From contig NC_060247.1 of NCBI RefSeq assembly GCF_921293095.1, positions 49,263,111 to 49,327,110 on the forward strand: a stretch of DNA of 64,000 bases. Direction: 5' to 3'. A program made the position numbers and the translations under genes. Source of the DNA: Ischnura elegans. Its lineage: Eukaryota; Arthropoda; Insecta; Odonata; Coenagrionidae. Shown here piece after piece: positions 521 through 48,113 of the stretch. The notes beneath the pieces were generated by a model. The model saw only the letters and a program-made list of their open reading frames with translations. It was not told the DNA's origin and made no database searches. Every line of letters begins with the position of its first letter. Position 1 is the first letter of the stretch.

Positions 521-3500
521 ATGCAGTCCGCGTCGACCTTGGTCATCTTGCTGTTCCTGGCCCTCTCCCGGGTCGCGAGGGCCGCGGAGGACGACACGGA
601 CGTTGCGGCTCCCACTGACCGCCTCTCCATCTCGGCGGAGCAGCTGCCCTCCGTGGACATGTCGGCACTGTCCAGCATCGCGGTGTCTGCAGGGGCGGCG
701 GCCCTGGGAGTCGCCGGCCTCGCCCTCGTCGCCTACCTCATCCTCTACATGTTTGGCGTGAAGCGGTGCCACCTGCTCGGCACCTGCGACGCCCTCGCCG
801 CCGCCACCGCGCACTTCACCAACCCACCGCCACCACACGTGACTGCCGGTAAGCCAACAACCTTATTGCGAATTTTTTTCATAGTCTAAGTAAAAAAGTT
901 CTTCACATTACTATATTAGTACTCTTCCGGTTATGGTAGGCTTACGTGGAGCGTTATGCGTATCACCTCAGTATGTCTCCCCACCTAATTTCCACCGGTA
1001 AGGTAACAAACTAATTATGAGTTTAAAAAGTCTGCAATTAAACAGCTTTTCAACACATAATTGAAGTATTCTATCAGTTAAGGTAGGTTTACATAAAGCA
1101 TTGTGCGAGTCACTCCAGCCTATCTATCCACCCAATTTCCACTGGCAAGACAACAACCTAATTACGAGTTTAAAAAAATCTAATTAATACCTATTTCCAA
1201 ACAATATGAAAGTATTCTAGTGGTTAAGGTCAGTTTCCATGGAGTATTATGCGAATCACGCCGACCTCTCCCTCCACCCTATCACCGCCTGTAAGGGATC
1301 AATCACGTTATGAGATTTTTTTATAATCTTACGAAAATCTTTTTAGTACATAAATAGGGTTTTCTATCGGTTATGGTAGGTTTACATGGAGTATTACGTC
1401 AGTCACCTCGGCCAGTCTCAATTTTCCAATTTCGATTGCACTTTTCAATTCCCTCTGAGATCTAATAATGCATCCGTCATGTTTAGGTATTATAGAACTA
1501 TATTTAAAAGTTGAGAGACATTTTGGTGCTGTGCTGTAATAACTTTATAGACAGCCTTCAATACTGCATCCAGATGAATGTAATCACGGGCATTTAATAC
1601 GAAGAAGTTTCGTAAAATCGGAGAAACCCTAATCAATGCATAAAATAATTGATAATATATATTCAAATATAATGATAATAAAATATTCAAAGAAAACCTG
1701 TGCTAAGGGATATATATACTTTTCTCGGAATTCCGCGCGGGTAAGATTTTGTAAGAGAGCCGACGTTTCGGGTACCGACTCGTTACCCATTCTCGCGGCA
1801 ACCAATTATTAGTTATTCTAGTAGCCGTGAGAATGGATAACGGGTCGGTACCCGAAACGTCGGCGCTCTTACAAAATCTTACCCGCACGGAAACCCGAGA
1901 AACGTTGATATATTCTGTTCCCCAGGAAAGTGTTAAATCTTATTACATATTAGATTACATCAATATGCTTAGGGAGATGGTATCATGAATGCACGATACA
2001 AAAAATATTTTCTAATTGTTAATAAATTTCTGATACATAATCAGTAATTATTCGGGAACATGCTCTCGGGTTTCTGGCCGAGTGAATGTCTTCAAGGCTA
2101 AAAACACGAGAGCAGTTCCTAAATATCTTTCCCCCGAAAAACACCTCATCATATTTCAAATGGTAATTAGTAAATAAAGTCTGCCGTTCTTGCTAGCGGC
2201 GGGGATAGAAGCCTTGTCTCCAGGGCTACGGGTTCTAGTACCGCCATGAGTCTTTCTCGGAAGCCGTTTTTTTAGGATATTAGCATCCTCCTTGAGGTTT
2301 TACATCTCTTGAGACATCAGAATACGAGCTATCCGGTGTTACCAGATCTCGGGGGTACATGAATTACCACGGCTGTACAGGAATAAAAACAATAAAAAAT
2401 TAAGCAAGTTTAACTGATTAGTAGAATTTTCAAGATTCTAGAAAGTGCTCCAAGGTCCTTCGTATCTAGGTCGGCCTATCTATCTTAACCAATGAACAAA
2501 AATCTCCAATAAATAGCACCGTAGGCAGTCTCTTGAAATCTAAGGGTAGGTACGGCATGTACGTGCGTAACTAGGTGTTATCAACCTCTTCAGAAGGAAG
2601 CTTGAGGTGGGGTGGCAATGTTTACTTATTCTATAGCAAAAGGAGAATATTTATTATTACGTTTTATGATGAGTAAATTTCCTAAAACTTTCATCATGAG
2701 TCATCTGTTGCGTTCCGATTTGATGTATCGGTTGTGTGACGTACATTACGAATTAGGAGCTGAAATTAGGGCAGATTTTTTTCAAACTTTACTTGACGCC
2801 TAGGAGTGGGGACGATATGAGTGTCATATCTACACGGTCAGAAATACTAATTCCGTTGCAAAATAAGCACGTACTTTGAATTATTTGGTTACCTAGATAT
2901 TTAAATTTATTAAATCTTTCAAATGTGCTTACCAGCCATCAAAATGAAAAAAAAACAGGAGAATAGCAAAAAGAATCGTTCCCTAAAGCTGTCGTAAATT
3001 GGCACGGAGAAATAAAAAAGGCAATGCCTATGCAGATAATCTGAGCTTGTAAAGAAATATGGCAAAGCAACGTGATCTTGGAATGCATCCAGCGAAATAT
3101 GCACTGGTGTTTGCTGCCGACAAGGGATGAAAAAGAAAAAGATGACCGAAGTGTTGCATAACCTGCAGGATAAACGACACGTTTTATTCCAATCAAGATT
3201 TTAGATATTGCATTGAAGGCTCCAGTTTATTCACATTCCACGCGTATTATAATACTGAATAATGACATATTTTTATCCTATGAGGTTAAAAATCTAGTCA
3301 GAATTAGTAATGGAATTAAATTAGCATTCAGCAGAATTATCCAAACTCGATTAATGATATTATTTTACCATTCAAAGCAAATGACATTCACGCTTTTCAG
3401 CTTCAGAAAAGAATTATTAACTTAAATATAGGGGGAATATATACGATTAGGAATTAAAAATAGCAATTCATGGAAAATGTTATTGCTCTAGTTTAGCATT

Positions 3501-5223
3501 GTAAATTTACTACACTTCAGAGGAGCCTTCATTTTTTCCACCTTTTCTAAAAATGATTTTCAATGATTGATTAATGGCATTAAAAAGTAAAAGAACGCAG
3601 CATGTTGGCACATTGTTCAGTTAAAATATAATTTATCAGGGTTCATCTACTTTTCCACAAACTTCTGCGCTAAACAGACTACATACTTTATCTATGTTCA
3701 ATATGCTCTAACTTCCTGGCAGTCAAAATTTGCCTTTTCGATCAGATATGATTCTTTAAATTCAAGTAATGATACCCCCTCAACTGTTAATTTTAGAGAT
3801 TTTAATCCATAGATTTATGCTCGAAAGTGAAAATCGTTTTTTAAAGTTATACTTATTTGATAAATAATATATGTTTAACTGCAGAAGAACTTTGAAGATT
3901 TTCACAAGCCTTTAATGCTCAGTTTGATAAAGCGTAAAATGAAGAATATGAAAACCCCGATCTATACAATAGGTAATTACTTACCATTTGCAAGGCCACT
4001 ACATCACTTAAGCATATTTCCTTACATTTCTCTACAGTTATCCTCTATATATTTAATTTACATGGCGTTCAGAGCCTTCAAATGTAAGAACTATTTAAAA
4101 CATTTTATATGAAAATAATGAAAATTAAGCCCAAAACATTTCTTGCCGCTTATTTCCTCGTTCTCATGAATCAGTTGGTGTGTCTTCAGGGCATTACTCA
4201 TCCCAAATGGACACTTCTCCCTACGGAGCATACGCACCGCAGCAACCGCAGACCAATCCACCAGCCACCTACCAGCACGAAGGAAATTCATTCAACAAAA
4301 GGTAAGGAATCGGCCACGAAAAATAATTGATGAACACAAATCTACTTTCTCCCATCAACTACCATTCAAAGTAAAAATAAATAAATGGAGAAAGGTCATT
4401 CTTAATGTACTCTTACCACATTTAAATTATGAATCATTAATGGAATTTGATTTATACCTCATGAAGCCACAGAAAAAACTGTGATGAGCATAATTTCAGG
4501 GAAATAGATAATTTAATGACAAATAAATATACATTAGTTAAATTTTGATACCGTATTTCTGACACGTAACACGGAATAAACGCATTTTAGGATTTTAGAG
4601 GCCTTTGAATTTAATATTACCGTTATAAAATAAAATAGTAACAAAATTTTGTAAAGTCAACTTTCCTAAATGAGATACGATAGTTCGTTAAGAATTGAAA
4701 ATAAATTACTATCCCATATAATGAATTATAGTAACTTAATGACACATATTGACAGAATCAATCAAGAAAGAAATAAGACAGATGACTTATTAAATTAATT
4801 TTTTGTTTATTTATTTAAGTAAACAAAAAATTGTTCCTCATTATTAGCCCCAAAAATTGGTCCTAAATAATAAGCATAAGAGCACAGTAAAAGAGGTGTT
4901 CCAGCACCCATAATACTCACCAATTAAATTTTATCACAACGGATTTCTTCAATAATGAAATTGGTACTTATTTTCATTAATAATATTTAATATCTTACAT
5001 TTTTACATATTTCGTGTAGGTTCAATTCCTTAGTACCCGGAAAAGAGATACTGTTTGATACAAACAAAAATTCCCTCTCCGGCTGAAAAAAATTGTTCAG
5101 CTTTCCTTCAGCCTTCTTTCACGAGTTTTTTTCCACATTTTTTACAGGTCTCTGGAGTACGTTGGACCAGTCCTGAGGAGTCTCGCCTCGGCATATGACA
5201 AGTATGAGAAATGGGGCTCTTAG
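521..5223 (+). CDS. Small secretory-pathway membrane protein, three exons (cluster gene 1)
   Basis: Exons 521-848, 4190-4301 and 5148-5223 join in frame (phases 1 and 2) into 171 residues. Junctions are G|GTAAGC, TCTTCAG|G, AAAG|GTAAGG and TTTACAG|G. Seen: signal peptide at residues 1-21, a membrane segment at about 53-79 rich in Ala, Gly and Leu, a Pro/Gln/Tyr-rich tail, then NKRS at 145-148 followed by a terminal helix (YVGPVLRSL) to Gly-Ser. The K-R-S plus helix ending matches the - strand genes of this cluster, though the membrane segment is unlike theirs and the YYDF motif is absent. It is the only + strand member and converges on the next gene, with 195 bases between stop codons. Function unknown. 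The exon structure is inferred from frame and splice sites, with no transcript seen. Confidence 0.82.
849..1440 (+). repeat. 147-bp tandem array in intron 1, four units
   Basis: Four diverged units follow exon 1 directly. A donor-like core recurs at 849 (gtaagc, the donor used in the gene model), 998 (gtaagg), 1145 (gcaaga) and 1291 (gtaagg), steps of 149, 147 and 146. Each unit also carries a block of the form ggttatggtaggtttacatg and a Pyr-rich stretch before the GT. Only the first unit abuts exon sequence. Confidence 0.75.
1721..1891. mobile_element. Long palindrome, foldback MITE-like
   Basis: The left arm 1721-1799 and right arm 1822-1891 are near-perfect reverse complements around a 22-base AT-rich loop. 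Shared cores include gtaagattttgtaagag and gacgtttcgggtaccga. GC content is well above the surrounding intron. The right arm holds gggtcggtaccc followed by gaaacgtcgg, which resembles stem II plus GAAA of a hammerhead ribozyme, so it could derive from a Penelope-like terminal repeat. No coding capacity. It sits in intron 1 of the first gene. Confidence 0.7.
4800..4834. repeat. AT-rich hairpin in intron 2 of gene 1
   Basis: The arms ttttttgttta and taaacaaaaaa flank a short AT-rich loop. The rest of intron 2 (4302-5147) holds nothing else I can support. Confidence 0.5.
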
Positions 5224-5311
5224 AAGCCGAAGGCTACAAACGAACTCTTGAAATGGTAGCGAAAAGAAGTTACAAAAAATGTCTCTCATTATCACTGTAT
5301 GTATTAATTGC

Positions 5312-5317
5312 AATAAA
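5312..5317 (+). other. Poly(A) signal of gene 1
   Basis: AATAAA lies 89 bases after the stop at 5223 and before the convergent gene that ends at 5419. Confidence 0.55.
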
Positions 5318-5418
5318 TGTGTATAAAACACTTCACAAATTCACTGCCTGAGACTTTTTGTCATTAGTACCTGCATTAAGACGCAGCTGCCCAAAATTAA
5401 AATTTATAATATTTGCCA

Positions 5419-5877
5419 TTAGATGTAGTCGTCAAAATCCTGCAGATTTTCCAAAGAATCGACGATTCTGTCGGCTTCACTGGCAGAGAGAGGAGTCTTG
5501 GTCCAGAATGAGTAAAGACCCGGCTCTGCCATGGATCTCTTCTGAAGATAGTCGTAGCTGTAATCTGCCGGCACGGGAACGTAGTTGACTTTGGAGAAAT
5601 AGATGGCCTCACCGATGGAGAAGAACAGGATGATGATGGAGAGTATCATGAACGAGTTCCAAATCTTGTAGGAGAATTCGGTGACGACCACGTCATAGTA
5701 ACCGGTGAACACGCCGCTGGGCAGATTGGGGGCTGGGGGAGTCGTTGGAGGCGGTGGTGGAGGAGGCGTCTTGGCGGGAGGCATGTTCTCGTAATACACC
5801 CCATGGGTTATCGTGCCCAGTGATGCAACAATGATGAGGTGAACGAGAAGCGAACATGTCGCCGCTTTTCGATTCAT
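5419..5877 (-). CDS. Single-pass membrane protein, YYD..EFSYKIW family (cluster gene 2)
   Basis: An intact single-exon frame of 152 residues. Signal peptide at residues 1-26, Pro-rich linker at 33-53 with a run of seven prolines, family motif at 60-73 (GYYDVVVTEFSYKIW), membrane segment at about 74-95, then YFSKVNYVPVP, Y-D-Y-L at 108-111, KRS at 113-115 and a helix SASEADRIVDSLENL at the acidic C-terminus. A TATA box lies 59 bases upstream of the ATG. Other members have an intron after the equivalent of Ser-Lys at 95-96; this one does not. I do not recognise the family. With a cleaved signal, the tail carrying Y-D-Y-L and KRS should face the cytosol. Not ruled out: processing in a different topology. 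Confidence 0.88.
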   Translation of the reverse strand: MNRKAATCSLLVHLIIVASLGTITHGVYYENMPPAKTPPPPPPPTTPPAPNLPSGVFTGYYDVVVTEFSYKIWNSFMILSIIILFFSIGEAIYFSKVNYVPVPADYSYDYLQKRSMAEPGLYSFWTKTPLSASEADRIVDSLENLQDFDDYI

Positions 5878-5935
5878 TCGGAGATGACTTAAAGCCCCCT
5901 CCTATATCTTGCCTCCTATGTCCCTCTCCTTTTTT

Positions 5936-5943
5936 TTTATATA
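5936..5943 (-). promoter_or_regulatory. TATA box of gene 2
   Basis: The - strand reads TATATAAA followed by a run of A, 59 bases before the ATG at 5877. It implies a short 5' UTR of about 30 bases. Confidence 0.6.
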
Positions 5944-5944
5944 T

Positions 5945-9700: not shown

Positions 9701-9710
9701 TAGACGTGGC

Positions 9711-10187
9711 TCATCTTTCGTCCGAAGTGTTGGGAAGGCCATCGATGACCTTCAGTATCATGTTAATAGTCCGCACATCGAGATACTTCCACGACGGGAA
9801 AACACTTTTGACAGTCCTCCGCCTCCTCTTCCTCCTCTTCCCGAAGTAATCGTATTCGTACTCCGGCGGAGGGACAACGTAGTTGGACCGCGAGAAGTAC
9901 GTGGACGCCACCCCAGCGTAAGCTATCAGACTGAGGCCGAAGAGCACGAAGTACTGCCAGAACTTGAACGAGTATTCCTGCAGGATGAAGTCGTAGTACT
10001 CGTGAGTGATGGGTACGCTCTGTCTCGCCACAAGGGCGGGGTCCTTGACCCCGGTACCCGGGAAAGCAGACAGAGCGCGCGAGGAATGCGCGAACTGCGG
10101 TGGGGACTCCGATGCCGCGACCATCAGCAGGAATCCCCGGGACAACGCAAAGGTGTAAACGGCGAAGATGGCGAATTTCCTCGACAT
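9711..10187 (-). CDS. Single-pass membrane protein, THEYYDF..EYSFKFW family (cluster gene 3)
   Basis: Single exon, 158 residues from the ATG at 10187. An in-frame ATG at 10223 would add 12 polar residues ahead of the signal peptide, so I prefer the downstream one. Signal peptide at about 1-26, linker ending ALVARQS at 51-57, family motif at 63-77, membrane segment at about 78-97, SNYVVPPPEYEYDYF at 101-115, then an unusually long basic run (KRRKRRRR, 117-124) where relatives have KRS, and a C-terminal helix VRTINMILKVIDGL at 138-151. The intron found in other members after the membrane segment is absent. Function unknown. The basic run could mimic a nuclear signal or bind membrane phospholipid. 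Confidence 0.86.
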   Translation of the reverse strand: MSRKFAIFAVYTFALSRGFLLMVAASESPPQFAHSSRALSAFPGTGVKDPALVARQSVPITHEYYDFILQEYSFKFWQYFVLFGLSLIAYAGVASTYFSRSNYVVPPPEYEYDYFGKRRKRRRRTVKSVFPSWKYLDVRTINMILKVIDGLPNTSDER

Positions 10188-10223
10188 GTTGTGGTAGTTG
10201 AAACAGCCTTCAAAATCTTTCAT

Positions 10224-13923: not shown

Positions 13924-15666
13924 TCAAGTGGGGTCAGCAGAGATTCGATTAAGCATCCGAATATTTGTTGCGACGTGTTTCTTTTTGCGTTCTACTCTAC
14001 CCGCGCCCCACCACGATTCGTCCGTGGAGAGAGGCTCTGGAGTCGAGGATATTGATCTGAGGATGTGGTCCACACCTTGCCGCGAAATCTTCAGTGGGGA
14101 ATCTAAGGTGTTCGTCGCTTCTTCGCCGTAGACAGACCTTTTGATCACGTAATCGTAATCGAAAGCCTGCGTCGGAGCGAGAGTATTCGTCTGAAAAAGA
14201 TAGTTTACAAATATGAGTTAAAAGGTACATTGAGTATGTAGATGTATATACATGTATATAGTCAACTTAAGAAAACAAAACCTAGGATTTAGACTTGCTT
14301 TGAAATAGCTTAAGATGAAGTTGAATAAGAATAGAATACAGGTGTTCCCTCAAAAATGCCAAAATAACTCCAGACTTTCACAGGAATTCAACCTTAAGAC
14401 TAATTTTAAGCTGTTATTCCATGGTAACACATTCAACCAACTGGGTTTGAAAAGAAAGTTTAAAATGAACAGGAGCAGAATTGTAGGATAAATATTATCT
14501 GTGTGTATGTCATACACTCCTGAGGAATGTAGGAACCACAAAATATACTATACAAAATCACAAATCCACAGGGCATTTTAGGATTGATAGTGAAGAGCTA
14601 AGTGGAAAGAGCGCGTTCGGAAAAAAATTAAAGAAGAGTATTAAATTTCATATCGGTGAATAGATTTCTAAGAATCCTCCGACTCATTTCAGCGTAGATA
14701 TGAATGAAAATGATAAAGTTTTTACTGATATATACAAATTAGATCGTTACTCCTCACGAGCTGGTTACATAGATGAAAAATAAACTTATTTCGGGTAAAA
14801 ATAATACTTAAACATTAATTTCATTCCAGTAGTGGAAAGCTTTTCCACTACGCCACTAGAATTTTCATTGAAAATTCCATAACCGGGCATAATAAACATA
14901 AAATGAGTGGACTTTGATTGTATTTCCAAGTCGTGCGTACCTAAAATTGAAGTTTTAAAACCTCATTCATACCATTTCAGCTTTGCATCCTTCTTTTTCT
15001 TTCCCAACGCTAATAATTCGAAAAAAATTTAACTATGGTTACAATGTCATACCCTACATTCACATCTCGTAAGAAACATAATGGATAGGAAAATCGAAAT
15101 AAAATACCTTCGAGAAAGACGGAGGAACAAGTACTCAGAGCAGGAAAGGAAGGATAAGGGAATTTTTCAACAGGAATTAAGGAAATTGGTAATGGATATA
15201 ATCGGAGGACTGCAGCAAACCAATTATATAGTACATGCTACGTGTATTATGCAGTAGGTATACAGTAACAGAATGCGAGTATGCTTACCTCGGCAAAATA
15301 AGCAGCCACAAGACACGCGTAGAATACATTGATCATAGCGTATATCATGAAGACGACCCATATCTTGTACGAATACTCTGTGATGATGAAGTCGTAGTAG
15401 GCGTTTGAGGACTGCCTCGTCTCTCGGTGGAGAACAACAGCCCTCGAAGCCTCCGTCACCGTTTCCTCCTCTTGCTCATCATCTTCGTCAGCCTCGTACG
15501 AATCATAGTAGTCATCTTCTTCTGGGAGCACATCAGCGGACGCGATTTGGCAGAGTAGTAGGAGGCAGACCAGGAGGGAGGCCAAGGATGGGCGGACTCC
15601 CCGGAAAGACGGTAGACTCGAGTTACAGAGGCTTTCTTGATTGCACCAAGATGGCGGCAGACGCAT
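13924..15666 (-). CDS. Single-pass membrane protein, two coding exons, acidic linker (cluster gene 4)
   Basis: Exon 15666-15289 and exon 14190-13924 join in phase 0 (CCGAG|GTAAGC and TTTTTCAG|ACG) into 214 residues. The frame stays open upstream to about 15732, but TTTTTCCAG lies just before 15715 and the first ATG is 15666, so 15715-15667 is probably 5' UTR of this exon and an upstream exon is expected. Signal peptide at 24-44, acidic linker at 46-72 (D/E/Y-rich), RETRQSSN at 81-88, motif NAYYDFIITEYSYKIW at 88-103, membrane segment at about 104-123, Y-D-Y-V at 138-141, KRS at 143-145, helix GVDHILRSI at 165-173, then a long basic C-terminal extension not seen in relatives. Family unrecognised. 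The pairing of exons rests on frame, motif order and splice sites. Confidence 0.83.
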
Positions 15667-15732
15667 CACCTCTTTTTCTCTTCCCAGATTTTTTTCAGCC
15701 TCAGATTTACAGTTCCTGGAAAAATTGACCAA

Positions 15733-16770: not shown

Positions 16771-16776
16771 AGTTAC

Positions 16777-19416: not shown

Positions 19417-21901
19417 TCAGGAGGGCAGCGGCGGCTGTGAGATGGCCCTGAGGATTCTCCTGGCGGTGGAAGGCGAAGGCGGTGGGTTGGCGGGCCACCC
19501 TCCCGGCGAGGGGTCGATATGGTCCTCGTCTTCCTCCTCGGAGGCGGACCGCTTGGCCAGGTAATCGTACTCGTCGTACGAGATGGGAGGCGGCAAATAC
19601 ACCGTCTTCGAAAATAGGAGAAAGGCCTCATGATCAGCCAACTACACTAATCACTCCCATTAAGGCTACCATACCTGCAAGAACGGTAAGTTCCCAGGCA
19701 TGTCCTAAAATTTAATCATTCTCTCGCCGTCTGGAAGGCACTAATAAACAATTTAAATGCCTCCCTTTGAATAAATAAACTTTTTAAATTAATTTTTTTA
19801 CAAAAATAAAACTGAAGACAATTCATGTAACATATAGCAATACATTTTAAAATATAAAATGATATATCAAAATACCGAAGCAAATATAGTGGTTCACAAT
19901 GATCAACTAATTCGAAATCACGATTCAGTACGAGGTAAATGAGAAGTTTCAGCGTGCACACCAATCCATGGATATGGATTAAGACGTGTTCATTGCATAA
20001 ACATACAATTTCAATACGAAGTTTTAAAAAATATTGTTACAATTATGTCAATTAATGAACGCTATGGCGATTTTTTAGCAGCTGGATAAAAAGCATCAAC
20101 AAAAAGAAAGAAAGCGAAAATTCATCCATTAAATTTATCCCATATTTGTTCTCAAACGAGAATACCTCTAGCAATATCCTGCCACGGATCGTACCAGCCA
20201 TAAAATGTAATTTTTACAGAAAAGCTCTATCACAACACTAAAATTTGGAATGCACACACACCGAAGGCGAGCACACGGAATAAACGTAGCGCAGCGTGGG
20301 GACATTTTGCTACTTAGTAGCCCAAGAGATAAAGAAAATGTTATAATATTAAGGAAAATTTGTTAAAGTCACCAAGTTTCACGCCGTGAACACCAAATGT
20401 CATTAGTACTACTCCGTTATATAAGAATATCCTATAAAATCAACAATCGCCTCTTAGATTTCTGTGTTAAGAATATATCCCTCCTAATTTGGGAAATTTT
20501 TTTTCTGTAATTACGATGCAATAATAAACATTTCATCGTTAAAGGATTATATCCCTTGGCTTGAATCAATAACCAAGAACATTGGAGACGGTTTGATTGA
20601 GGTAGAACTTGTGCATCTCTACCTAAATATAAAAATTGCTGCATTATTGAACGGAGATTAAAAGGCTGATGAATTTATGCAGAGAAGGCACTGATGCATG
20701 TGAATATAGCACAGAATAATTATGGCTAGCAGTACGGACTCATTAATAATGAAAATAAGGAATATTATAAGGAGCTTGATATGATGTTAGTGGAGTCAAA
20801 ACTGTTAACTAAAACAAAGAAGAGACAGAGGGAGCGGATGAATAGGTCGCATAGAGAAAAGGGAATGATGAAAGCCTAAGAAAGGGGAAAATACACGGAT
20901 AAGGAAGGAAAAGAGTATAGTTGAAGTTGAGAGAGGTAAATCAATATGGGCTACTGAGCTGGACTGAAGAATAGAATGGTGGCAATAGCATAGAGGTTAG
21001 GTGATAAATAGGAGTCCGAGAGCAGTATATGTGAATCCCCCTAAAGGAGGTTGGCCCAAAAAACAGTACATGTCATTTTTATGAAAATATTTTAAAATTC
21101 TCTAAAAAAAATAGCTCGTGGACTGGCGGCCACAGAAAATAGGCCTTACGCGCTATATACTCTGGAAATTGAATTTAAAAATAAGCATATTTCTGAGCGT
21201 CCTTAAGGTAATACTTTTCTAAGCACAAGAGAAAGGATAGTTAATGCTAGAACACGTAAATTCGCTTGGACAAAAACTGATATTACGTTCGTGAAACGTT
21301 AAGAATCATGATAAAAACAGAATTTGGTCTAGTCACCGGACTAACTTTTGATGTAATAGCAAATAAACACAGTAATCGAAGTCAAATAACGTTATTTTCA
21401 AGGAAATTAGACTTATGTTGCCTCAAGTAAATGAAAAAATTGTCGAATAAAAATATAAATCTTTAACTATACATTTTCTTAGCACTCTTAATTGGAAATT
21501 CAAACCTCGATAAATATATCGTCTATAAGGGTTATGCATTTTAAAAATAGAATGTACAAGAAGTATTTGTTCGCACTATCGCAAAATAAAAACCCTTACT
21601 ACAAGGGTGAGACTAAAGACTCCAACCCTTTCTCACTCACGTGTGCCACCCAAACTGCGGCCAAGCATGAGTAGAGGAGCATGGCGAGGGTGGCTATCAT
21701 GAAGGCGGCCCAAAATTTGTACGAGTACTCGGTGATGATGAGGTTGTAGTATCCGAGGGCGATGGGATTCTGTCGGGACGTCTCCTTGGTGTCGTCGTTG
21801 GCGGAAGCTGCAGCGAAGGCGAGCAGCACGCTGGAAGTGGACGCGAGGAAGAGGAGGAGGGAGCGGGGAAGGGATGCTGGAAAGAGGCAAGGGTGAAACA
21901 T
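19417..21901 (-). CDS. Single-pass membrane protein, two coding exons (cluster gene 6)
   Basis: Exon 21901-21641 and exon 19605-19417 join in phase 0 (CAC|GTGAGT and TTTTCGAAG|ACG) into 149 residues. The ATG is preceded by CATTCTCTCAG|ATTTCCGGC, so this exon probably starts at about 21910 and a 5' UTR exon lies upstream; a good candidate ends at 24921. Signal peptide at 1-34, linker with TSRQNP at 41-46, motif GYYNLIITEYSYKFW at 50-64, membrane segment at about 65-85, then TVYLPPPISYDEYDYL, KRS at 105-107, an acidic and Pro-rich stretch at 109-133, and the terminal helix TARRILRAI at 134-142. The acceptor is weak (GAAG), but the join restores the family order exactly. Function unknown. Confidence 0.8.
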
Positions 21902-25372: not shown

Positions 25373-27410
25373 TGACAACCAATTTTTGTGTATTTCTTTT
25401 AAAAATTAACTTGACCTGACTCTGTTGAGAAAAAAAATCAACTTGTGCCCCGTGGCTTCTACAAACGAGATGAATTAGATATTTTTTATAGCGCATTTGA
25501 TTTCCTTCTCAAAGTCAGCACATAACTGAGACTCACTCGTATCTTAACTCTCTATCTAACTCTAACTCGTAACTTAATAATTTAAATCTAACTCGTAACT
25601 TACGGAAGATAAGCGACAGCGAAGTTTTTCCTCCACAATATAAAATTTACAGATGCGATCGACGCAATAGAACAGGTGGCGAAGTTTTTATAACAGTTAA
25701 ATCACATTTACACAGCGCCGCCCACGAAATAATTGACAACGAAACAGAAAGCGTATGGTGTACAATTAAACAACGAAACAAAAGGAGTATTCATATTTGC
25801 TTTTTTTATAGACCTCCGAACTCCGAAGTCGATATTATCTACCGACTGGAAAATCAAATATCCGCATTTACTCAGAGAGACAGTAAAAGTCTTACAGTAA
25901 TCGGGGGAGATTTTAATCTTCCATCCATAAACTGGGATACTTACACTGTAAAATCGAATTCAAGGAATAGAGAAATCAGCGAGATTTTACTTGCAAAGCA
26001 CTCTCTCGCCCAAGTAGTTGACAAGCCTACGAGAAGAAATAAGGTATTAGACCTTTTGGCAGTAAGCCATCCTAATTTGATAAAACAAGTCGATATTATT
26101 GACGGTACAAGCGATCACAGAATAATCTTTGCAACGTTAAAAATTGATGTAGTGTCAGCCGTAAAACCGAAACGCAATATTTACTCATTTGATAAATGCA
26201 ACTTCACTGAATTTGGCGAGATGCTTAATGACTCCTACAAAAAATTCGTAGCTACATCATAGGACAAAAGCATAGATGTAACATGGAAACACTTCTAAGA
26301 AATTCTGCGCGAATGAATCAACGAACATATTCCGCAAAAACTGAAATGTGATAATAAGGAACCACGCTAGTACAACAACGATGTCCGAAGGAGCTTAGAA
26401 AACAGAGAAAACTATACAACGTGTACAGAAAGCCCGTTACGTTATGTAATAAATTGAAGGAACTTGAAGATAAAGAAAGTTACGCTGCACACGCTCAATA
26501 ACCAAGAAATCAATGCGAAATGCGGACTTAGACAACGTTCATTTGTGGAGCCAAGGGTGGGGACTCGAACTAAAACTGATTGTGAGCAAATTCATGACGG
26601 TACATTTCTTGCGGAATTCGTTCAACTACAACCATGTTTATGCAGTGAATGGTTTTAACATAAAGGCGGCAGACGAAGTGAAGTTCCTGGGAGTTAAGAT
26701 AACCTCGAACCACACGTGGGGAACACATAAGGAATATTTGCGGCACCGCCCTGAAGAAATTAGGATTCGTCAAGCGTATTCTGGGAAGATTTTCGGATGA
26801 GAAAGTAAAAGAAAGGTGCTATTACGCACTCGTCCGACCGCACCTTGAATATGCAGCGAGCATATGGGATCGGGTGCAGAAAGACTTAATCCGCGAACTG
26901 AATAAAATACAAAGGAAGGCTGCGCGTTTCGTCAAAAACGGCTACGGCCGTACAGACAGCGTTATCCAGGTGTTAAGCGAATTAGGCTGGTAGCCGCTGT
27001 GGGCTCGGAGGCTGCGCACTAGGCTTACATTGCTTGAACAATTGAGAATGAATATCTTTAAGAGCGACACAGAGAACATAATATTAGAGCCACACAATAT
27101 TTCCAGGTCCGATAGAAGCGACAAATTAAGAGAGATGTTTTACCGAACGGATAAATATGGGAATTAGTTTTTCCCCGGAACCATAAAGGACTTTAAGAAA
27201 CGCTAGTCCCAACTTCGTTAGAGCTCTTCATTTTTTTTATCTTTAAACGGCTGGTGTCCTAACACCCACTGCCACACGCCTGTTAGGCGGCTTGCGGGGT
27301 ATTATGTACATATATCCCTAGGCAACCAATTTTTGTGTATTTCTTCTTACAATTAACTTTACCTGAATCTGTTGAGAAAAAATCAAATTGTACCCCTTGG
27401 CTTCTTACGT
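25373..27410 (+). repeat. About 90-bp direct repeats on both sides of the LINE
   Basis: 25373-25462 and 27319-27410 share ggcaaccaatttttgtgtat / gacaaccaatttttgtgtat, ctgttgagaaaaaa and ccccttggcttct / ccccgtggcttct, about 85 percent alike by eye. A partial extra copy of the neighbouring sequence sits at about 25463-25545. They are too long and too diverged for a LINE target duplication. More likely a local tandem array into which the LINE inserted. Confidence 0.55.
25605..27312 (+). mobile_element. CR1-like LINE, internally deleted
   Basis: The first part (25605-26265) reads in one frame as the C-terminal half of an APE-type endonuclease: SDSEVFPPQYKIYRCD, CFFYRPPNSEV, GGDFNLPSINWD and SDHRIIFATL, including the catalytic SDH. 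Most of the reverse transcriptase is missing. From about 26513 the thumb/C-terminal region follows (ADLDNVHLWSQGWGLEL, VKFLGVKITSN, YYALVRPHLEYAASIW), with frame changes and stops. The 3' tail aacacccactgccacacgcc through ttgcggggtattatgta resembles the end of CR1/Jockey-group LINEs. Dead copy of moderate age. Confidence 0.82.
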
Positions 27411-35810: not shown

Positions 35811-35816
35811 TCACAT

Positions 35817-37678
35817 TCAATCCGGCGGTCTTTCCAAGGCACGAAGTATTCTCCTTATTGTCCTCGGGGACGGCTGCGGGAATCCCCAGAGCAAAGGAGG
35901 GGGTTCCGGGGCCGACCTTTTGGCGAAATAATCATATTCGTAGTCTGGCTTTGGAGCGTAATTGACCTGCGAAAGGGGAAAGAGAACAGACATGAAACCT
36001 ATTCCGAGGTTCATAACGGCAATGAATTACGCATTTAAATAACTTTACTTGAGTTCTGAGTAAAAATATTATATATGAATAACCTTACTTGAATTATAAG
36101 TAAAAACAGATATAAACACCTTACACAAATAAAACAAATATCTACTTCAATACAATTCACAAAGAATAATTATGCTGATTACATCAATACATCGTTTTCG
36201 ATCGTGGACCACTCGGTGTACAGGTCTTTACCATACATAAGGTTTATACTTTACGCAATTTTGATGCAGCAATAGATGTTATTAAGATGTAAACATAAAA
36301 AGCTCTATCGGTCTATCACAGATGGAACAACAGCTACCTAAAAATTTTCTTATTTAGCTTAAGTTTTGGCCGTCAGATAGACTGCGCATTATTTCCTACC
36401 TGGAACATTAAGGCCGTTCTACACGTGGCACATGGTTGCGCAGGATTATCTCTGCATTCATTTCACAATCTTGCGCGCAATAATTATTGCGCCGACGAAT
36501 GCGTTACAGCTTTACGCGTTAATTGCATTCAAGCATTTATTCACGAAATTTCGTTGCCAGCTGAGAGCGAGCGAAGCGAGCTAATTGTTAAAACAAGGAA
36601 CAAACGAAATTCAGTGCGCAACTTTATAGGCATACTGGTCTGTTTCGGGTAAATGCGCCGACACAAATACGAGTATCCTGAAACTTAAGCAGACGATAAT
36701 ATGCGTACAATTAATAAGGTAAAACAGTGAAAAGGGAGACGAAGATACCACGCATAGTTAGGATTGCTTTTGCCACTGCCAAGAATTTACACTTTTCCGC
36801 GACGCAAATAAGACGGAAATCAAAATCGAAAATTATAAATTTTTCACGTCTCTCAAATTCATGAAATCCTCCAGAAAATTGTAACATATATGTACAATAT
36901 AAACATATATTCACTCATTAAACCGGTATGGTAGAACAAGAAAGTTTAAGCGTGATGCGCTATACACATATTGCTAATGTAAATGGTTTTGTAGTGCCCA
37001 TGCATAAAATAACTGTGGGACTTCAGATGCAAAGAGTACTTTCATGAGTGTCATCCTTCTGACTCGAGACACGGGATTTCGCTTCTTATCTGCTAGATAT
37101 GCTTATACTCTCCGAAGGAAACAAGCTAGCCATTCATTAAATAATTAGTTCCATATGGTACACATGTGATCAAAAATAAAGTCATAAAACGCCTGTATTG
37201 TAGATAAGTAAATGGCGTGAAAACAGAAAAACGTACATGTCACAGGCTTTTGAGCTATTCCTCGCAAGTAACATTCGCAATCAACAAAGTCCAAAAATAT
37301 TGTGACACATACCCTTTTAACAGCATAAATACTTATAATGATACGAGTCCACATAAACTAACACTCATCTCCAAAAAGGTATGAATTATCATAGAAAAAA
37401 TTACATGCATTAAAAAAACAAACTAACGACCCACCGACCACACTAATTGATGTACAAGATTTTATTCGAAAACCTTTTCTCACTGAAAATTACCAATGAT
37501 ATTTCAAATTAATTATTCTTACCTTGGACAAATAAAGCGCAGCTCCGCAGCCATAGAGCAGAATCCCCATAGTTATCACGCTGATGATGGACCAAAATTT
37601 ATAAGAGTACTCATTAACGAGGAGAGCAAAATATCCTTGGCCATTATTATTACTTTGCCTTTGTACTTCCACGTCCAT
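35817..37678 (-). CDS. Single-pass membrane protein without signal peptide, two coding exons (cluster gene 7)
   Basis: Exon 37678-37523 and exon 35966-35817 join in phase 0 (CCAAG|GTAAGA and TTTCGCAG|GTC) into 101 residues. VQRQSNN at 5-11, motif GQGYFALLVNEYSYKFW at 13-29, membrane segment at about 30-49, SKVNYAPKPDYEYDYF at 51-66, KRS at 68-70, Pro-rich 71-85, terminal helix RTIRRILRAL at 87-96. It lacks the signal peptide of its relatives. An in-frame stop lies ten codons before the ATG, and a three-codon upstream frame (ATG TTA TGA) precedes it. TCATTCTCTAG at about 37733 looks like an acceptor, so a non-coding 5' exon is expected. Either the N-terminus is truly short or a splice form supplies another start. 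Confidence 0.8.
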
Positions 37679-38360: not shown

Positions 38361-39175
38361 TCATTATGATTAAAAACTTTTGGGCTATGTCGCCGTGTCA
38401 ATTCTTTGGGTGGCCCCAACGTTTCCCGACCGATGCTGGTCGCTTTTTCAAGGGATTATGGAGATATGAGAATTTAAAATCTTTTATATAGGTATCTTGT
38501 CAGTTGGTGGGGGGGATGGGAGCGGGAGGCTGGAGGAGTGGGTTGCTGCTTGTTTTTTCCCACTACGGGTTGCCAAGTACGTTGCTAATTTTAATGCCGG
38601 TATCCCTATTAAAATTGTTCTTTTCTTCTTTGGATATTTCAATAGCTTCTCGGACGAGTCTCTGTTTAAAACCTTTAACTTTTGCAAGGATTTTGGCTTC
38701 CTTTAGGTCTATAGTGTGGCCCAGCGCTGCGTGTTCGGCTACCGCGGACTTGGCTGATTGTCCCAGTCGAATCGCTTTTGCGCGCTCTTCAAGGCGTGTT
38801 TTGACTGACCTGCCTGTTTCGCCGATATAGTTCTTCCCGCAGGTCTGGCAAGGAATTTGGTAGACCCCTTCCACTTGTAGTGGAGTTCTATCCTTGACGG
38901 TGTTTAGGAGATGTTTTATATGTATGTGAGGCGAGAAGATTGTCCTTATCTGGAATTCTCATCTCTTCATAATCCCTTGAAAAAGCGACCAGCATTGGTC
39001 GGGAAACGTTGAGGCCACCCAAAGAATTGACGCGGCGACTTAGTCCAAAAGTTTTTAATCATAATGAATTGCAGTAAAGTTTTCTCGGATTTCGCATCAG
39101 GTCAGGTCCTCCATATCTTATCCTTTCAACGTTTCGATGAACATCTCGCCCATCGTCATCAGGGATCCAGGAATC
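38361..39175 (-). mobile_element. Penelope-like element fragment with GIY-YIG domain
   Basis: Arms of about 110 bases at 38361-38471 and 38955-39067 are inverted repeats of each other, starting tcattatgattaaaaacttt. Between them the - strand carries the C-terminal GIY-YIG endonuclease domain typical of Penelope-like elements (38874-38563: GVYQIPCQTCGKNYIGETGR, then an alpha-helical tail). No reverse transcriptase is present, so the copy is 5'-truncated. The flank to 39175 contains a hammerhead-like motif, which this family is known to carry in its terminal repeats. Broken copy of moderate age. Confidence 0.75.
39132..39162 (-). ncRNA. Hammerhead-ribozyme-like core next to the Penelope-like fragment
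   Basis: The - strand reads CTGATGA, C, then GATG and CATC enclosing 11 bases (stem II), then GAAAC. These are the two conserved core boxes and stem II. I cannot draw convincing stems I and III, so it may be a decayed copy. Confidence 0.4.
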
Positions 39176-39765: not shown

Positions 39766-40005
39766 TGGGAGCGTGGAAGTCTAATGGGTATGGCAGTTGG
39801 TTGCTAACCGAATGATCCCGGGTTCGTATCCCGAATGATATCTAGCATCCTCAAACCCGTGTACTTGGTGGCTCAGGGAAAGAAACTGGGCCTCCCTACC
39901 CTGAATGAGAAAATGCACACACCTGTGGCTTGACCTAGGGTGAGCTCTACCCACACCTACGTAATAACTACAATCTAACTACCTTCACCTACCTAAATCA
40001 ATATT
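39766..40005 (+). mobile_element. tRNA-derived SINE
   Basis: The head is tRNA-like: an A-box-like region at about 39774-39790 and a B box ggttcgtatcc at 39831-39841 within gatcccgggttcgtatcccg. The body and 3' part (cacctgtggcttgacctagg, gtgagctctacccacac) recur as a fragment at about 39205-39262, which shows it is repetitive. No usable target duplication seen. Confidence 0.65.
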
Positions 40006-41833: not shown

Positions 41834-41934
41834 GTTATAACTGGCACAATGAAACATGAAACGCCGAATACATAGATACAAAAATACATGTACCCGTAAG
41901 TTACCAAGGAAACAATTATTGTACGTACACTTAC

Positions 41935-42080
41935 CGAGAGGGGCAGGCCGTAGTGAATCCACCCTCTCCTTCTCTTGTGAAATGGTCTCTCGGGAGTCTT
42001 TCACTCTCTGCTCTCTTCCGTTTTCACCGCGACACCCGTCTGTCACTGGAATCCGCGACTGCTCCACGCGCCCCTAAACG
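41935..42080 (-). other. Candidate 5' UTR exon, possibly of gene 7
   Basis: A GC-richer patch directly beside the hAT element. On the - strand it ends CCCTCTCG|GTAAGTGT, a strong donor. No family motif in any frame. The expected acceptor for gene 7 is at about 37733, 4.2 kb away. The upstream boundary is not determined. Confidence 0.3.
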
Positions 42081-42089
42081 ACTCACCGG

Positions 42090-45000
42090 GAAGTGAAGAG
42101 TCGACGCTCGGGGTAACGGACCGCAGCGACATCGCTAATTCGAGATTCGTGGACATGCGTGCCACGAAACGTCTGTAGGATTCCCAAAAGAGCGGGAGGT
42201 AGATGAACGCTTAATACGGATGTATTAATGACATCTACCTACTCCATTGCTGACGACTGGAAAAAAAGCCCACGTCACGATCCATAAACGATTCCTTCAC
42301 AACTCGTCACAGGCAATTCAAACAAACTTTCACGTGCCTTCGCGGAGTAATAGCCCAAAGTGGGATTTTTTGATGAAGAGTTTAGGATGAAACAGGCGGA
42401 TTTAGGAGGGCGGCACGTGTCCCTCCCAAGATGCTTAAAAATAGACGAGATTTTTAATACTGTTATCATTACGTCCGTTCTGTTTTGTTTATTGCGGGGT
42501 CTAAATCATTTAATTTCATATTAATAACTTTCATATTTAAATAAAGAGAATATTTCGCACATAAAAATTGTTGTATGTTGTTTTTAATCTCAAACATGAC
42601 AAGACCGTTTGCCTGTCAGGCCCTTGCCCACCCCCCTTTCCCAGAAAAATACTGGATCCGTCCTTGGGAAGAAATGTTGGACCCAATGCACGTGATCTTG
42701 GGAGATACGAAAGACCGAGTGAAAAATAAATATTAAATGATTTGGGAGGGAATAAAGGTTCTTGTGTTGCAGAAGGATAAACTTTGAGAAAAAAATATAA
42801 ATAACGAAAAATTTATAATATACCTAGTATATAATTATAACATGTCATAAAACATGGAATTGCTTGATAGTAAAAACGCCAAGAATTTTTTGCCCTGCCA
42901 TCGACGACGGCCGTCATTTATTTTAACGAAAAGCAATAAAAGAGAGCACATTCTTGTTCCCAGAAACTAAACTATTAAACTTGGCGTAAATATATAGAGT
43001 TGAAAACTCAAAAATAGCATCTCTATGTTCACAGCTACTAAAGGGAATTACTCGAATTAGGGAATTTGTTAGTGGCGAAAATCTTCCATATAAGGGAAGA
43101 TATGTTTCGTCTATTGAGAGACATGAATACTATTGTGCCTTCTAAAATCGATTTCGCCATTGATATGAGTTTTTTTTCGGACATTAAAAGAAATTGCTAT
43201 TAGTCGTCTGCTCCAGGGTCCATCAAACTATGCCGAACTAGGTTGTTGTAAACGGAGCTAATGGAAGTTGTGAAATACTAACAATCAAAAACCACATGCA
43301 GTCTAACCGAAGTAGCGTTATATGAGATCTCTTTCCTTACTTCCTTATTCGTAATTTTTAATTCATCGAAAATAACTCCGTCAGAATACAAAACCATCAG
43401 TAGAATTTCATATCAATTCTTCAAGAGTAACTGTACGAACAATTAAGCATTTAATCCCTTCCGATATGTTACTTCGAAAGTGATTAAATTAAGTTTTTTT
43501 CTAGATATTAACGTATTTAAATTGAGATAAGAGGTAAATTCTTCCTGATGCTCATACGTTTTTTTCTTTGGCTTTAAAAATTTAAGCTTGTTAAAGATAA
43601 TTTTCGACGTTTTCTACTTCCCTTTCTATTTTTTAATGGACGGGATTTACATTTCAATCAAACAAGAGAGCTTCCCTTCCCTTAAATAAATGTTATAAAC
43701 TCAAGCATGTGTCGTCTATAACCCGCAGCAATTACCTACCTTCAATACCTTTGAGTGGCGATTGAGGCAAGAAATGATGTGGTTGAATGTATACCAAATT
43801 TTTAACTTCCCAAAGGTCTTCGAAATGGAATTTCTCGTAAGTTGAAAAGATTTTAGTATGAAATAACGGCCATTTAGAAATGATGTATATTCCACCATAA
43901 ATAAAAATGTCTATTATTACCAACTAGACACGCAGGTTGATTTTTTTCTTTGAAGATGGGAGGAGGAGTTTAGCTCTCAACTATGGGTAAAATATATAAA
44001 GGTTACTCATTTAAGTATTTCCATTACTTATTCTTAGTATGTGGGAAGGGTGATGGGCATTCAACTCTATCACTATCTTCCCTCATGTTACTAACGCTAT
44101 CGATTAATAACACATCCGACGATATCGTGTAATAGAAAAATATCGAATAAACCTCAAGCAAATCTACCAACATAATTTACCTTCGAACTGAAGACGTATA
44201 AGCGGTGGCTTTCGGAACATCTATCAACGAACGCGGCCGGGGAAACCGGAATCACACTCATCGCGAGCACTCCCGCGGAAACCAACGCAAGAAATCAACA
44301 AAAATCTTAGATTAATCGATGTTTCCAAACTAACCCCTTGCTTAAAACACAAAATTTACCGTATTGTTCGAAGCATATCGAGTAAAGAAAATATAATAAA
44401 ATTAAACCCCCGATAACTCTTGAGTAACATAAAAAAACCTTAGCTGAATCGCATTACTTAAATTTATACACGAAGGAACCATTGGCATTTAAAGTGGCTC
44501 CTGCATTCTCCATTTATTGAAAAGAGTTTCATACGCAACTGCCGAGACAACATCCCAATTCTCCAAGGGTTTTTCCATCACGAAAAACGAGTTTTCAGCT
44601 AAAAATATATTTGGTTTTCGGTTTTTGGCAAATTACACGATAAACAATTTTTCATTTACAATATTTTCTACTTTATTACAGTGCTCAATTATTTTTTTCC
44701 GGCATCAATATCTAATACGGCTCAAATTACAACATAGATTTCTACTCGGAAATATAACAAAAACACATTACATTTCGCTCAAACTTTTAAAAGACTCAAA
44801 ACGCCAATGACTTATCCCACCTAGAACTCAAAATATCGTTTTTACCGTAAATTCTGTAATTTTTCGATGTCCAAACAATTCGCAGAGTAAGTTGGTACAA
44901 GCATTCACTGGCGATAAACTTTCCCGAAAATCGTTTCTCGGAGAGGAATGATTTCTGCAACTAACACGAACAAACATGGACGAATTGATACCCTGTAAAA

Positions 45001-46140
45001 ATGATCATATCCTTGTAGCAATTTAATATGAAGGAGCATATTTAAAAATATGAACAGATATTTTATTTTGATAGCATAAAACAACGAGCAAATATATTAC
45101 ATCTGACAGAAGAAATTCATCAAACTTAAAATTTAATAAAACTAGTCCATAACAATAAGAGAGACAACGAGGTAATTTTCCACGACATGTCTCTAAAAAA
45201 CTCAACCAGTTTCGACGTGCCTCACGTCATTCTTAACGTATTTTTAATAAAAGTAGTGAGGAAAATTACAACGCTGACTCCCTTATCATTATGAGATGGC
45301 TTTCCCCAAGTGAATACTTCGACCGTTGACCTGAAAACTAGTCCACTTAAAAAAGGAAAATTTCGGCTTTCTGCCAAGAATACCAATTAATATTTTAAAA
45401 ACTATCTTTGCAATCATAGGAGATCCTATAAGAAACCGTTTTTCACTGGTCGTTTGTCAACAAAAGTACATAAAAACATAGCACCCCGTCCCCATCACGG
45501 ATCCCCATGCTTATTTCACAACCTCGACAAGTAGAAAAACTGGAGCAGATTAAGCAAAATTTTATCAGCATTTCAAACTATTTCGAAAAATTAAATTTGG
45601 AATCATGGCTTCAATGTCATGAAGGTGGCTATTTTAAGACAGTTGTCAACATCCACATAACAATAAAAAGAACTGCTGGTATACGAAGTTTCGTTTAAAA
45701 TTTATTCAATTAAAATATACAAAATGTGTTATAATTAGGTCCACAATTGAAAAAAATCAGTGTTTCATTACAATGAGAATGTAAAATATATTGTGCAAGA
45801 ATTTTCACAATCCCTGACAGTCATGAGAGACAGTTCCTTCGGCAATACACCCAAAATGCATGAAAACATCCCTTCCGCGAATGTCCACAATACTCTCTTC
45901 TCTTCATTTCTAATTCAAATGCAAGATTTTCCCACTACCTCCGATGAAGGAGCATGGTTAAAACACAACGGCACACTCAGTACAATTTTTCACTATTACT
46001 CATTATATTTCCATACCGCCAACTTCAAATGTGAACCATGCCTTAAACTTTGAATACCAAATGCTTTAAATAATCAACATCAGAAAAAAAGGTATCGCCA
46101 GAATTTCGAATATTAGATGAAAAGTTCTTTCCGATCATTA
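42090..46140. other. Intergenic apart from the candidate exon at 44.2 kb
   Basis: AT-rich, with no supported gene. At about 42600-42660 a C-rich stretch (cacccccctttcccag through ggatccgtccttgg) looks like the end of a decayed MITE of the hAT type found at 48.4 kb. Confidence 0.35.
44181..44300 (-). other. Candidate exon with hydrophobic frame
   Basis: A GC-rich island in AT-rich sequence ends on the - strand in TCGAAG|GTAAAT. One frame reads FLALVSAGVLAMSVIPV and runs to FSSK at the donor in phase 0, the same residue type and phase as the cluster's intron. No upstream start fits (a stop precedes it), and no partner exon was identified. Confidence 0.3.
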
Positions 46141-46149
46141 CCAGCTGAG

Positions 46150-46587
46150 TCATCTTCGTCTTCTGCGTCTATCAGGACGCCAAGCATCTTCCGAAGCGAT
46201 ATTCGGCATAAACTGAATGGATCGCAGGACCGTATCAACGTTATCGGTCCCTGCAGACCTCTTCTTGAAATAATCTTCTTCTTCCTCCGGGTTTAGTCCT
46301 TTCAACTTCGCCATAATGGTGGAGAGAAACGCAGCATATATCAGAATGCTTATAGTTATCACCATGCATACGGCCCACACCTTTGCAGATATTTCAGTGA
46401 CGGTGAAGTCATAATAGCCAGAATAAACGTTGCCGATGAGCTGCTTCGACGAGGATTGGTCGCCCCTGGTGCCATTGGCCGGAGTCTCCGAGGTTAGGGA
46501 AGCGGCAGCCCCGCCAATCACTACCCAACGAAGAAAAAATGCGGTGGCTGACTGAAGTTCTTTCACAAAACTGTTCGCGAGCTCCAT
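46150..46587 (-). CDS. Single-pass membrane protein, GYYDFTVTEISAKVW family (cluster gene 8)
   Basis: An intact single exon of 145 residues. The N-terminal hydrophobic stretch at 16-31 is a weak signal peptide or anchor. The linker has a possible N-glycosylation site (NGT at 38-40). Motif YSGYYDFTVTEISAKVW at 55-71, membrane segment at about 72-92, KLKGLNPEEEEDYF at 94-107, KKRSAG at 108-113, helix NVDTVLRSI at 116-124, and an arginine run at the C-terminus (residues 140-145). It deviates from relatives in having Ile-Ser-Ala-Lys instead of Tyr-Ser-Tyr-Lys and an acidic run before the D-Y-F. No intron after the membrane segment. Function unknown. Confidence 0.87.
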   Translation of the reverse strand: MELANSFVKELQSATAFFLRWVVIGGAAASLTSETPANGTRGDQSSSKQLIGNVYSGYYDFTVTEISAKVWAVCMVITISILIYAAFLSTIMAKLKGLNPEEEEDYFKKRSAGTDNVDTVLRSIQFMPNIASEDAWRPDRRRRRR

Positions 46588-46599
46588 CTAGAAGATCTC

Positions 46600-47525
46600 A
46601 AAAACGGAATATCGTCACGGTCCCTCAACCATACGTCCTTCCCCTGACCAAAGCGCCGACACTACCACCTCCCAAGGCCTACAATCCTCCCGCTCCTATC
46701 ACACATCGGCCACAAACATCTTCGTAGACCACCACGCGTCAACCTACGCAGCACGAGGGGGAGGATAATGTCCGGGGAAATCTTTAAGTGGCCGGATACA
46801 GCTGGTCCCGTGGAATAACGGAGTCGAGACACGTCGATAATTGGAGGTTCATGCAAGAGGGAGCCACTGCAAGGCGGAGGGATATGCACGAGGAGGCTAG
46901 GATTGTGGGTGTATAGAGCGGGTGGAAGAGGTCCAAGTGTCACAGGTCTGTCAGGATGATACAATGTGGATGGAGGTAGGAGACACAATTGAAGGCTTGA
47001 TAATGAATACAAACAAATGGAAGATATACAAGGCGGTGCGGGTGAAACGAGGGATGAGAGGGTTCCGTGGTTCGAGGTGTGGGTAGGAGAAAGGGGTGAA
47101 GAGCGGTTTCATTCGGAGTGGTTATTTGCTTCCCACCACTTGTTTGCCGTTCCATTCACACCAAGCAGCTCACTCTCCCACCTCACGGCACGCTTCCGCG
47201 ACACTTCACACCCCGTCCTCTGATTAATACAGACGTGAGAACGACAATCACACAAGGTCCTGTCCTCGCTCAGTATCCTACGCCTTCCCACCCCTCCTCC
47301 ACCTCTTTCCCCTTACCCACCCCTTCTCATGCCTGGTAGACGAGAAGAACGTTTAATTTCAATACGACGAAACCCTTAAGAATTAGAAATATGAACGACC
47401 GAGTCCGGAAGAGAGGGTGAATCTTTGCCATTACTACGAATCACTTGGCGAACATACCGGAGCTTCACTTCCAGTCGTTTCGTAGATAATTAATTATTTT
47501 TTACAAATCGCACCTCCCCGATGGA
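46600..47525. other. Intergenic between genes 8 and 9
   Basis: GC content is higher than further left. Several open frames on both strands are Pro/Ser/Thr-rich and lack motifs; I treat them as by-products of base composition. No repeat is recognised. Confidence 0.4.
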
Positions 47526-47531
47526 ACCCTA

Positions 47532-48113
47532 TCACATGTACTTCTGCCCGAACTCGTGGATGGCCTTGCCGACCATGTCCGCCAGCCCCACGCTCCCAGA
47601 TTCTCTGCCGTACCCTGCCGGGAGATTGATCCTGTGCCTCGCTATAGCCTTGATGATCAGCGCCCCCACGTAGACGGTGTAGTAGATGGCGAAGTAGAGG
47701 GGGATGTACCATAGCTTCCGGCCCAGGAAGTAGTAGCTGTAAGGCTTTTTGCTCACCCTCTGCCCCATGTCTTTAGGCGGCGGGGCTTTGGTGGTGGTCG
47801 TCATTGGGTAGTGAGAGGGGTACCCGTAGTGTCCTCCCCCTTTCAGCGGCGGAGGGTTCGGACCCCAGTATATCTCCTCCCCACCGTACTTGGGATCGGG
47901 CGGGTCTCCGTAGGAAGACGGCGGTCCGGAATTCGAATCCGGGGGAGGCCAGGAGTCCTGCCTCCTGACCCCGTCCGGCGGCTCCTCCAACTTGTGGTTT
48001 GCCGCGTTCGCCTGACCCTCGTTGCCATAGTAGGAGGCGAAATAGTCGTGCTCCAGCGCCTCGAGGGACGACGCCAGGGCGTTCAAGAGAAGCAGCGAGA
48101 GTGCCGCGCGCAT
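47532..48113 (-). CDS. Secreted-linker membrane protein, GRKLWYIPLYF type (cluster gene 9)
   Basis: An intact single exon of 193 residues with GC-rich codons. Signal peptide at 1-19, then a long Gly/Pro/Tyr-rich linker at 21-117 with GVRRQDS at 48-54 and a Thr run at 105-108, then KKPYSYYFLGRKLWYIP at 122-138, a strongly aromatic membrane segment at about 136-158, ARHRINLPAGYG at 158-169, and a C-terminal helix LADMVGKAIHEFGQKYM. It lacks Y-D-Y and KRS but keeps the order signal, R-Q linker, aromatic-Lys-Trp motif, single membrane pass, and terminal amphipathic helix. It is probably an older, more constrained paralogue or a neighbour that converged. Function unknown. Confidence 0.85.
   Translation of the reverse strand: MRAALSLLLLNALASSLEALEHDYFASYYGNEGQANAANHKLEEPPDGVRRQDSWPPPDSNSGPPSSYGDPPDPKYGGEEIYWGPNPPPLKGGGHYGYPSHYPMTTTTKAPPPKDMGQRVSKKPYSYYFLGRKLWYIPLYFAIYYTVYVGALIIKAIARHRINLPAGYGRESGSVGLADMVGKAIHEFGQKYM

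Follow-up and report, generated by a model that had tools for sequence, protein, structure and literature searches.

A 64-kb stretch of the Ischnura elegans genome (the window) contains a row of short genes for small membrane proteins with a common plan, which raises the question of whether they descend from one ancestral gene and what such a set of proteins might do. From its sequence, the cluster appears to be old and to consist of tandem duplicates that encode small type I membrane proteins. The window has a GC content of 36-44% across 4-kb steps, and a tRNA search over its 64 kb found none. It looks like gene-poor arthropod DNA with fragments of non-LTR retrotransposons and a mariner-like transposase.

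Gene models were derived from the list of open reading frames, the frame translations and the inspection of splice sites. Six minus-strand family genes span 5.4-46.6 kb. Their products measure 152 (g5), 158 (g9), 214 (g14), 149 (g19), 101 (g35) and 145 (g46) residues, as the proposed range of 101-214 residues had it. Three of the genes consist of a single coding exon: g5 (5419..5877), which has a Pro-rich linker, g9 (9711..10187, counted from the second ATG; an alternative start at 10223 gives 170 residues) and g46 (46150..46587). Splicing of the other three had been concealed by a single-ORF reading. In g14, exon 1 (15289..15666) encodes the putative signal peptide, an acidic linker and the membrane core up to the donor GCCGAG/GTAAGC, and exon 2 (13924..14190) encodes the predicted cytosolic tail and the stop behind the acceptor tttttcag/ACG. 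Exon 1 of g19 (21641..21901) ends at the donor GCACAC/GTGAGT and exon 2 (19417..19605), with the tail and the stop, starts at the acceptor ttttcgaag/ACG. In g35, the ATG of exon 1 (37523..37678; donor TCCAAG/GTAAGA) lies shortly before the core, without a signal peptide, and exon 2 (35817..35966; acceptor cctttcgcag/GTC) again provides the tail and the stop. All three introns, of about 1.1 (g14), 2.0 (g19) and 1.6 kb (g35), are in phase 0, have GT..AG ends and are found at a homologous place just inside the membrane segment. At that site the reading frame of g5, g9 and g46 is uninterrupted, a clean absence of the intron.

Pyrimidine-AG stretches resembling acceptors were also seen by eye close upstream of the ATG in four of the six genes (g14, g19, g35 and g46), which suggests a 5' intron there. 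An extra upstream coding exon could exist in g35 and g46; no candidate was identified for g35.

The relationship among the six was assessed by leave-one-out searches, in which a core or tail profile of five genes was used to find the sixth, with 22,238 ORFs out of 10 triplet-shuffled windows as decoys. The core profile recovered all six at 38.4-60.2 bits (g5 48.4, g9 38.4, g14 50.0, g19 60.2, g35 49.9, g46 39.4; E 1.8e-16 to 1.1e-9), and the top decoy reached 12.0 bits. The tail profile recovered five, at 17.0-46.7 bits (g5 29.1, g9 19.4, g14 17.0, g19 37.3, g35 46.7; E 4.1e-12 to 0.0078), with the top decoy shown at 11.4 bits. The tail of g46, the most divergent among the six, is inseparable from noise when taken alone (12.2 bits, E 0.3, ranked below an ORF at 48.8 kb). 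Core and tail profiles of all six match all six in the window, by construction. Pairwise identity is 28-55% across 72-76 hand-picked core and tail columns, a set that omits the variable part linking K-R to the terminal helix. Leave-one-out recovery, identity and an intron at one homologous place together identify the six genes, at the sequence level, as true paralogs from one ancestral gene.

Codon differences in the core amount to 0.59 at the third position, 0.46 at the first and 0.31 at the second. With M and W excluded, different codons are used in 108 of 194 same-residue pairs in the core and in 47 of 91 in the tail. Codons differ while residues are kept, and therefore the protein has been constrained and the DNA has drifted far. 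The proposal of repeated duplication, with a constrained membrane and tail module and free linkers, is thus borne out by the leave-one-out searches, the shared intron, the identity and the codon changes. Because the divergence among the six is deep, the duplications are likely old and relatives likely exist elsewhere. None of the three inner branches in a tree of the six is well supported, and the tree therefore gives no order for the loss and gain of the intron. That the intronless g5, g9 and g46 arose as retrocopies was considered and dropped: the longest A run within 600 bases past the stop is 5-7, as in the spliced genes, and this equality lends no support to retrocopies.

The genes might instead be decayed or non-expressed copies, as the transposon pieces within the window and the want of a common promoter motif could suggest (exact words of 8-10 bases shared by the upstream 600 bases are not above those of random stretches). 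Yet the frames are intact in 6/6, the splice sites are intact in all three spliced genes, and the protein has been conserved over diverged codons, which makes decay most improbable.

The first-pass annotation had counted seven to eight genes. The six at 5.4, 9.7, 13.9, 19.4, 35.8 and 46.1 kb are upheld by the leave-one-out searches, but two further candidates, 47532-48113 (-) and 521-889 (+), are not. Both encode a protein that is hydrophobic at its N-terminus and has a single membrane segment. Against the family profiles, however, local shuffles of their sequences do equally well in 72-178 cases out of 500, the first 90 of 122 residues having been taken for 521-889. They have the general plan in common with the family without a detectable common origin. 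The protein of 47532-48113 (193 residues) has a putative signal peptide, a Gly/Tyr/Pro-rich linker, the membrane segment YSYYFLGRKLWYIPLYF and a possible terminal helix. It has no match in Pfam, and no relative was confirmed among the viruses and prokaryotes of IMG/VR and GTDB. The 122-residue ORF at 521-889, on the opposite strand to the family, is possibly exon 1 of another small membrane protein. A short ORF at 48813-48872 (-) contains KYDYIEKRSV and scores 11.5-15.6 bits with tail profiles. It stops after KRSV, and a possible acceptor, seen by eye, does not match the family intron in phase. No convincing match to the core profile was found in the window above 46.6 kb, and this ORF may be a relic or a chance likeness to the family tail.

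The six genes match no catalogued family across Pfam, PDB and the viral and prokaryotic contigs searched, and within that scope the view that they belong to no recognised family holds. Among Pfam matches up to E 10, in a search whose HMMER filters remove most matches above E ~0.1, none of the six members reached the cut-off; the best was PBP1_TM against g14 exon 1 (E 0.018). Three PDB matches by sequence (E 1.8-2.9) are taken as chance, and the fold of the g9 model found none in PDB to E 10. IMG/VR and GTDB were scanned with the six-protein alignment and one peptide pattern each, and none of the 29 (IMG/VR) and 30 (GTDB) pattern-matching stretches was confirmed as a relative; nor was one confirmed for g19 exon 1 in IMG/VR. 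These collections hold viruses and prokaryotes, and the nulls therefore say little about insects. Literature searches, at the level of titles and the opening lines of abstracts, gave no description of such a cluster or of its motif strings.

Besides the first M, nine residues are invariant in 6/6: Y, E, S, K, W, D, Y, K and R. The first five stand before or at the membrane, in the motif Y[YF]-x6-E-x-S-x-K-x-W (counted from the alignment), and D-Y-x-x-K-R stands behind it. A membrane segment is given by hydropathy in all six. A signal peptide had been assigned to every protein. Judged by hydropathy alone, it is retained in four of the six (g5, g9, g14 and g19), where an N-terminal 19-residue window exceeds 1.6, but in g46 the hydrophobic run is shorter, and no such window exists in the g35 model, where the ATG lies just before the core and the invariant W is residue 29.

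The g9 and g5 proteins were modelled with AlphaFold2, the input being in each case an alignment of nine rows assembled from pieces of the window. Both models predict a single helix of 42 residues that runs from the YYD motif across the membrane (g9 60-101, g5 56-97) and a terminal helix (g9 138-149, g5 132-143). The mean pLDDT is ~72 and the pTM 0.37-0.38. Ten-residue blocks wholly within the long helix have a pLDDT of 75-93, and the terminal-helix blocks 62 and 88 in g9 and 85 and 72 in g5. Extra short helices in the linker and tail have a lower pLDDT and were not interpreted. Conservation in columns 1-16 has its best angle at 170, with E-S-K-W at every second residue. An extended strand therefore fits this part better than the modelled helix. 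A conserved helical face was rejected: over the 38 core columns conservation shows no periodicity at 100 degrees (4299 of 5000 column shuffles reach the observed value).

Within the membrane, all six proteins have a small residue (A, G or S) at each of three columns spaced by four, an arrangement (small-x3-small-x3-small) compatible with helix packing. When columns 16-36 were shuffled 20,000 times, a small-residue pair present in 6/6 never arose; this shuffle takes no account of common descent, and the third of the columns (37) is just beyond the shuffled stretch. A multi-subunit or co-expressed set, as put forward in the first-pass annotation, is a conjecture with which such packing would agree, but the upstream sequences share no exact word above background. 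The periodicity of small residues is modest across the 38 core columns (reached by 75/5000 shuffles) and weak in columns 16-38 (616/5000) or 1-16 (566/5000) alone.

These features bring to mind accessory subunits such as FXYD or KCNE: the core would bind one ion pump, channel or receptor, and the paralogs would tune it by tissue. Like FXYD proteins, the six are small and single-pass, with a tyrosine-containing conserved stretch just outside the membrane and a membrane helix that carries small residues. The predicted exoplasmic stretch holds five of the nine invariant residues, and the small-x3-small columns are kept in 6/6. The juxtamembrane motif of FXYD serves pump binding, as do two glycines on one helix face in FXYD7, according to PMC12860976. 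The six genes differ in having no PFxYD and in a conserved block that extends into the YDY[LFV]-x-K-R tail and the terminal helix. No profile of the 35-residue FXYD domain matched the six members in Pfam to E 10, and FxYD was found ahead of the membrane in none of them (one FDYD occurs in the tail of g14). The conservation of the tail, which a pure membrane binder would presumably not need, argues in the same direction. An accessory-subunit role is thus unlikely, though it is the main rival to the type I surface-protein mechanism proposed below.

The conserved block of the tail, D-Y-[LFV]-x-K-R, sits about 12 residues past the membrane segment, on its predicted inner side. The full Y-D-Y-[LFV] that had been listed for the family occurs in five proteins, 34-36 residues past the invariant W, but g46 has EDYF at 33. 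Five of the six thus have a Y-x-x-phi sequence in the tail by this loose pattern. Each protein contains two to six such matches, mostly away from the YDY site, and because of these other matches the pattern alone is weak. The K-R is invariant and followed by S in five proteins and by R in g9, just as the K-R-[S/R] of the first-pass annotation stated. Behind it, a short terminal helix is a kept feature. Its amphipathic character is supported in five genes, where the helix moment is reached by 13 (g5), 48 (g9), 26 (g14), 15 (g19) and 0 (g35) of 2000 shuffles, but not in g46, whose moment is ordinary (135/2000).

An invariant K-R followed by S or R, with an amphipathic stretch behind, would also be expected of membrane-bound peptide precursors, in which a convertase cuts at K-R and releases the C-terminal helix as a peptide. 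In a protein with an N-terminal signal peptide or anchor and one membrane segment, a downstream K-R is cytosolic and inaccessible to convertases. As this arrangement is read in four of the six genes, the K-R would lie beyond their reach, and release of a peptide seems very unlikely.

The nearest known parallel to the type I surface-protein plan is the Osiris family (Tpl locus; PF07898, DUF1676), which likewise forms a tandem cluster in insects and combines a signal peptide, one putative membrane segment and a Yxx-phi motif. In Osiris too, the stretches between conserved blocks vary among members. PMC3284338 defines the family by a signal peptide, a two-Cys region, DUF1676, a membrane segment and an AQxLAY region. 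The six genes have the first and fourth of these features to the extent that hydropathy gives an N-terminal window in 4/6 and a membrane segment in 6/6, but they lack the other three: DUF1676 (PF07898) was absent among their Pfam matches to E 10, AQxLAY was found in 0/6, and no cysteine occurs between the signal peptide (its end judged by eye) and the membrane segment in any of the six. They have instead their own E-x-S-x-K-x-W juxtamembrane motif and D-Y-[LFV]-x-K-R tail. With three of the five defining features missing, highly diverged Osiris members are scarcely credible, although the general plan of signal peptide, one membrane segment, tyrosine motif and tandem cluster is alike.

According to PMC9870157, Osi9, Osi15 and Osi19 are endosomal in the fly trachea and redundant in tracheal maturation, and they have a membrane segment and a Yxx-phi motif that is discussed as a targeting signal. 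Because of this localization and motif, we infer that the six genes may work like Osiris proteins, without Osiris membership.

It is tentatively proposed, as the best of the possible readings, that they encode type I surface proteins carrying variable outer linkers on one shared membrane and sorting module, with an Osiris-like way of working. The N-terminus would pass out through the membrane, and the short variable linker, probably disordered, would face the outside. The shared module would consist of the membrane helix together with the Y[YF]..E.S.K.W stretch, and its small-x3-small positions could pack with sister proteins or with one common partner. In the tail, Y-D-Y-[LFV] would serve as a Yxx-phi adaptor-binding signal that leads to the apical surface or to endosomes; it would be followed by K-R and by a short amphipathic helix docking on the membrane or on a partner. 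Each paralog would thereby place a different linker at the same site, and the setting, by analogy with Osiris proteins, might be cuticle-making epithelia. The g35 model without a signal peptide and the EDYF of g46, which is not Yxx-phi, run counter to this sorting view.

A broader version appears distinctly doubtful: an old, undescribed insect-wide family whose shared helix would form mixed oligomers with varied disordered tails on the apical side, as a second Osiris-like complex. If general among insects, the cluster would be a deeply diverged gene block whose shared module is strict and which Pfam does not match, and any part that it plays in cuticle or in epithelial trafficking could have gone unnoticed. 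If confined to one lineage, it would be an ordinary lineage-specific expansion. Tandem paralogs that vary their outer linkers on a constant membrane module are also well suited for testing how such genes divide their labour.

Transposon ORFs of the window were read by eye, and Pfam was run on ten ORFs. A non-LTR retrotransposon piece at 25573-26990 (+) matches Exo_endo_phos_2 (E 1.7e-14 at 25.6 kb). Another, at 51423-52484 (-), gives the same match under the cut-off (E 0.0011 at 52 kb), and 57037-57486 (+) is presumably a third fragment of this kind. A mariner-like transposase lies in pieces at 62131-63302 (+); 62850-63302 matches DDE_3 under the cut-off (E 0.00027), 62131-62826 has no match in Pfam, and no relative of a transposase piece was confirmed in IMG/VR. 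The ORF at 38566-38958 (-), which contains YQIPCQTCGKNYIGETGRS and gave nothing in Pfam at E 0.01, we take to be the GIY-YIG end of a Penelope-like element. A near-identical inverted pair, 53384-53739 (-) and 56021-56376 (+), is spaced by about 2.3 kb, with translations identical or one residue different, and looks like a foldback element. Finally, a 140-base tandem duplication with 89% identity is found at 58596-58875.
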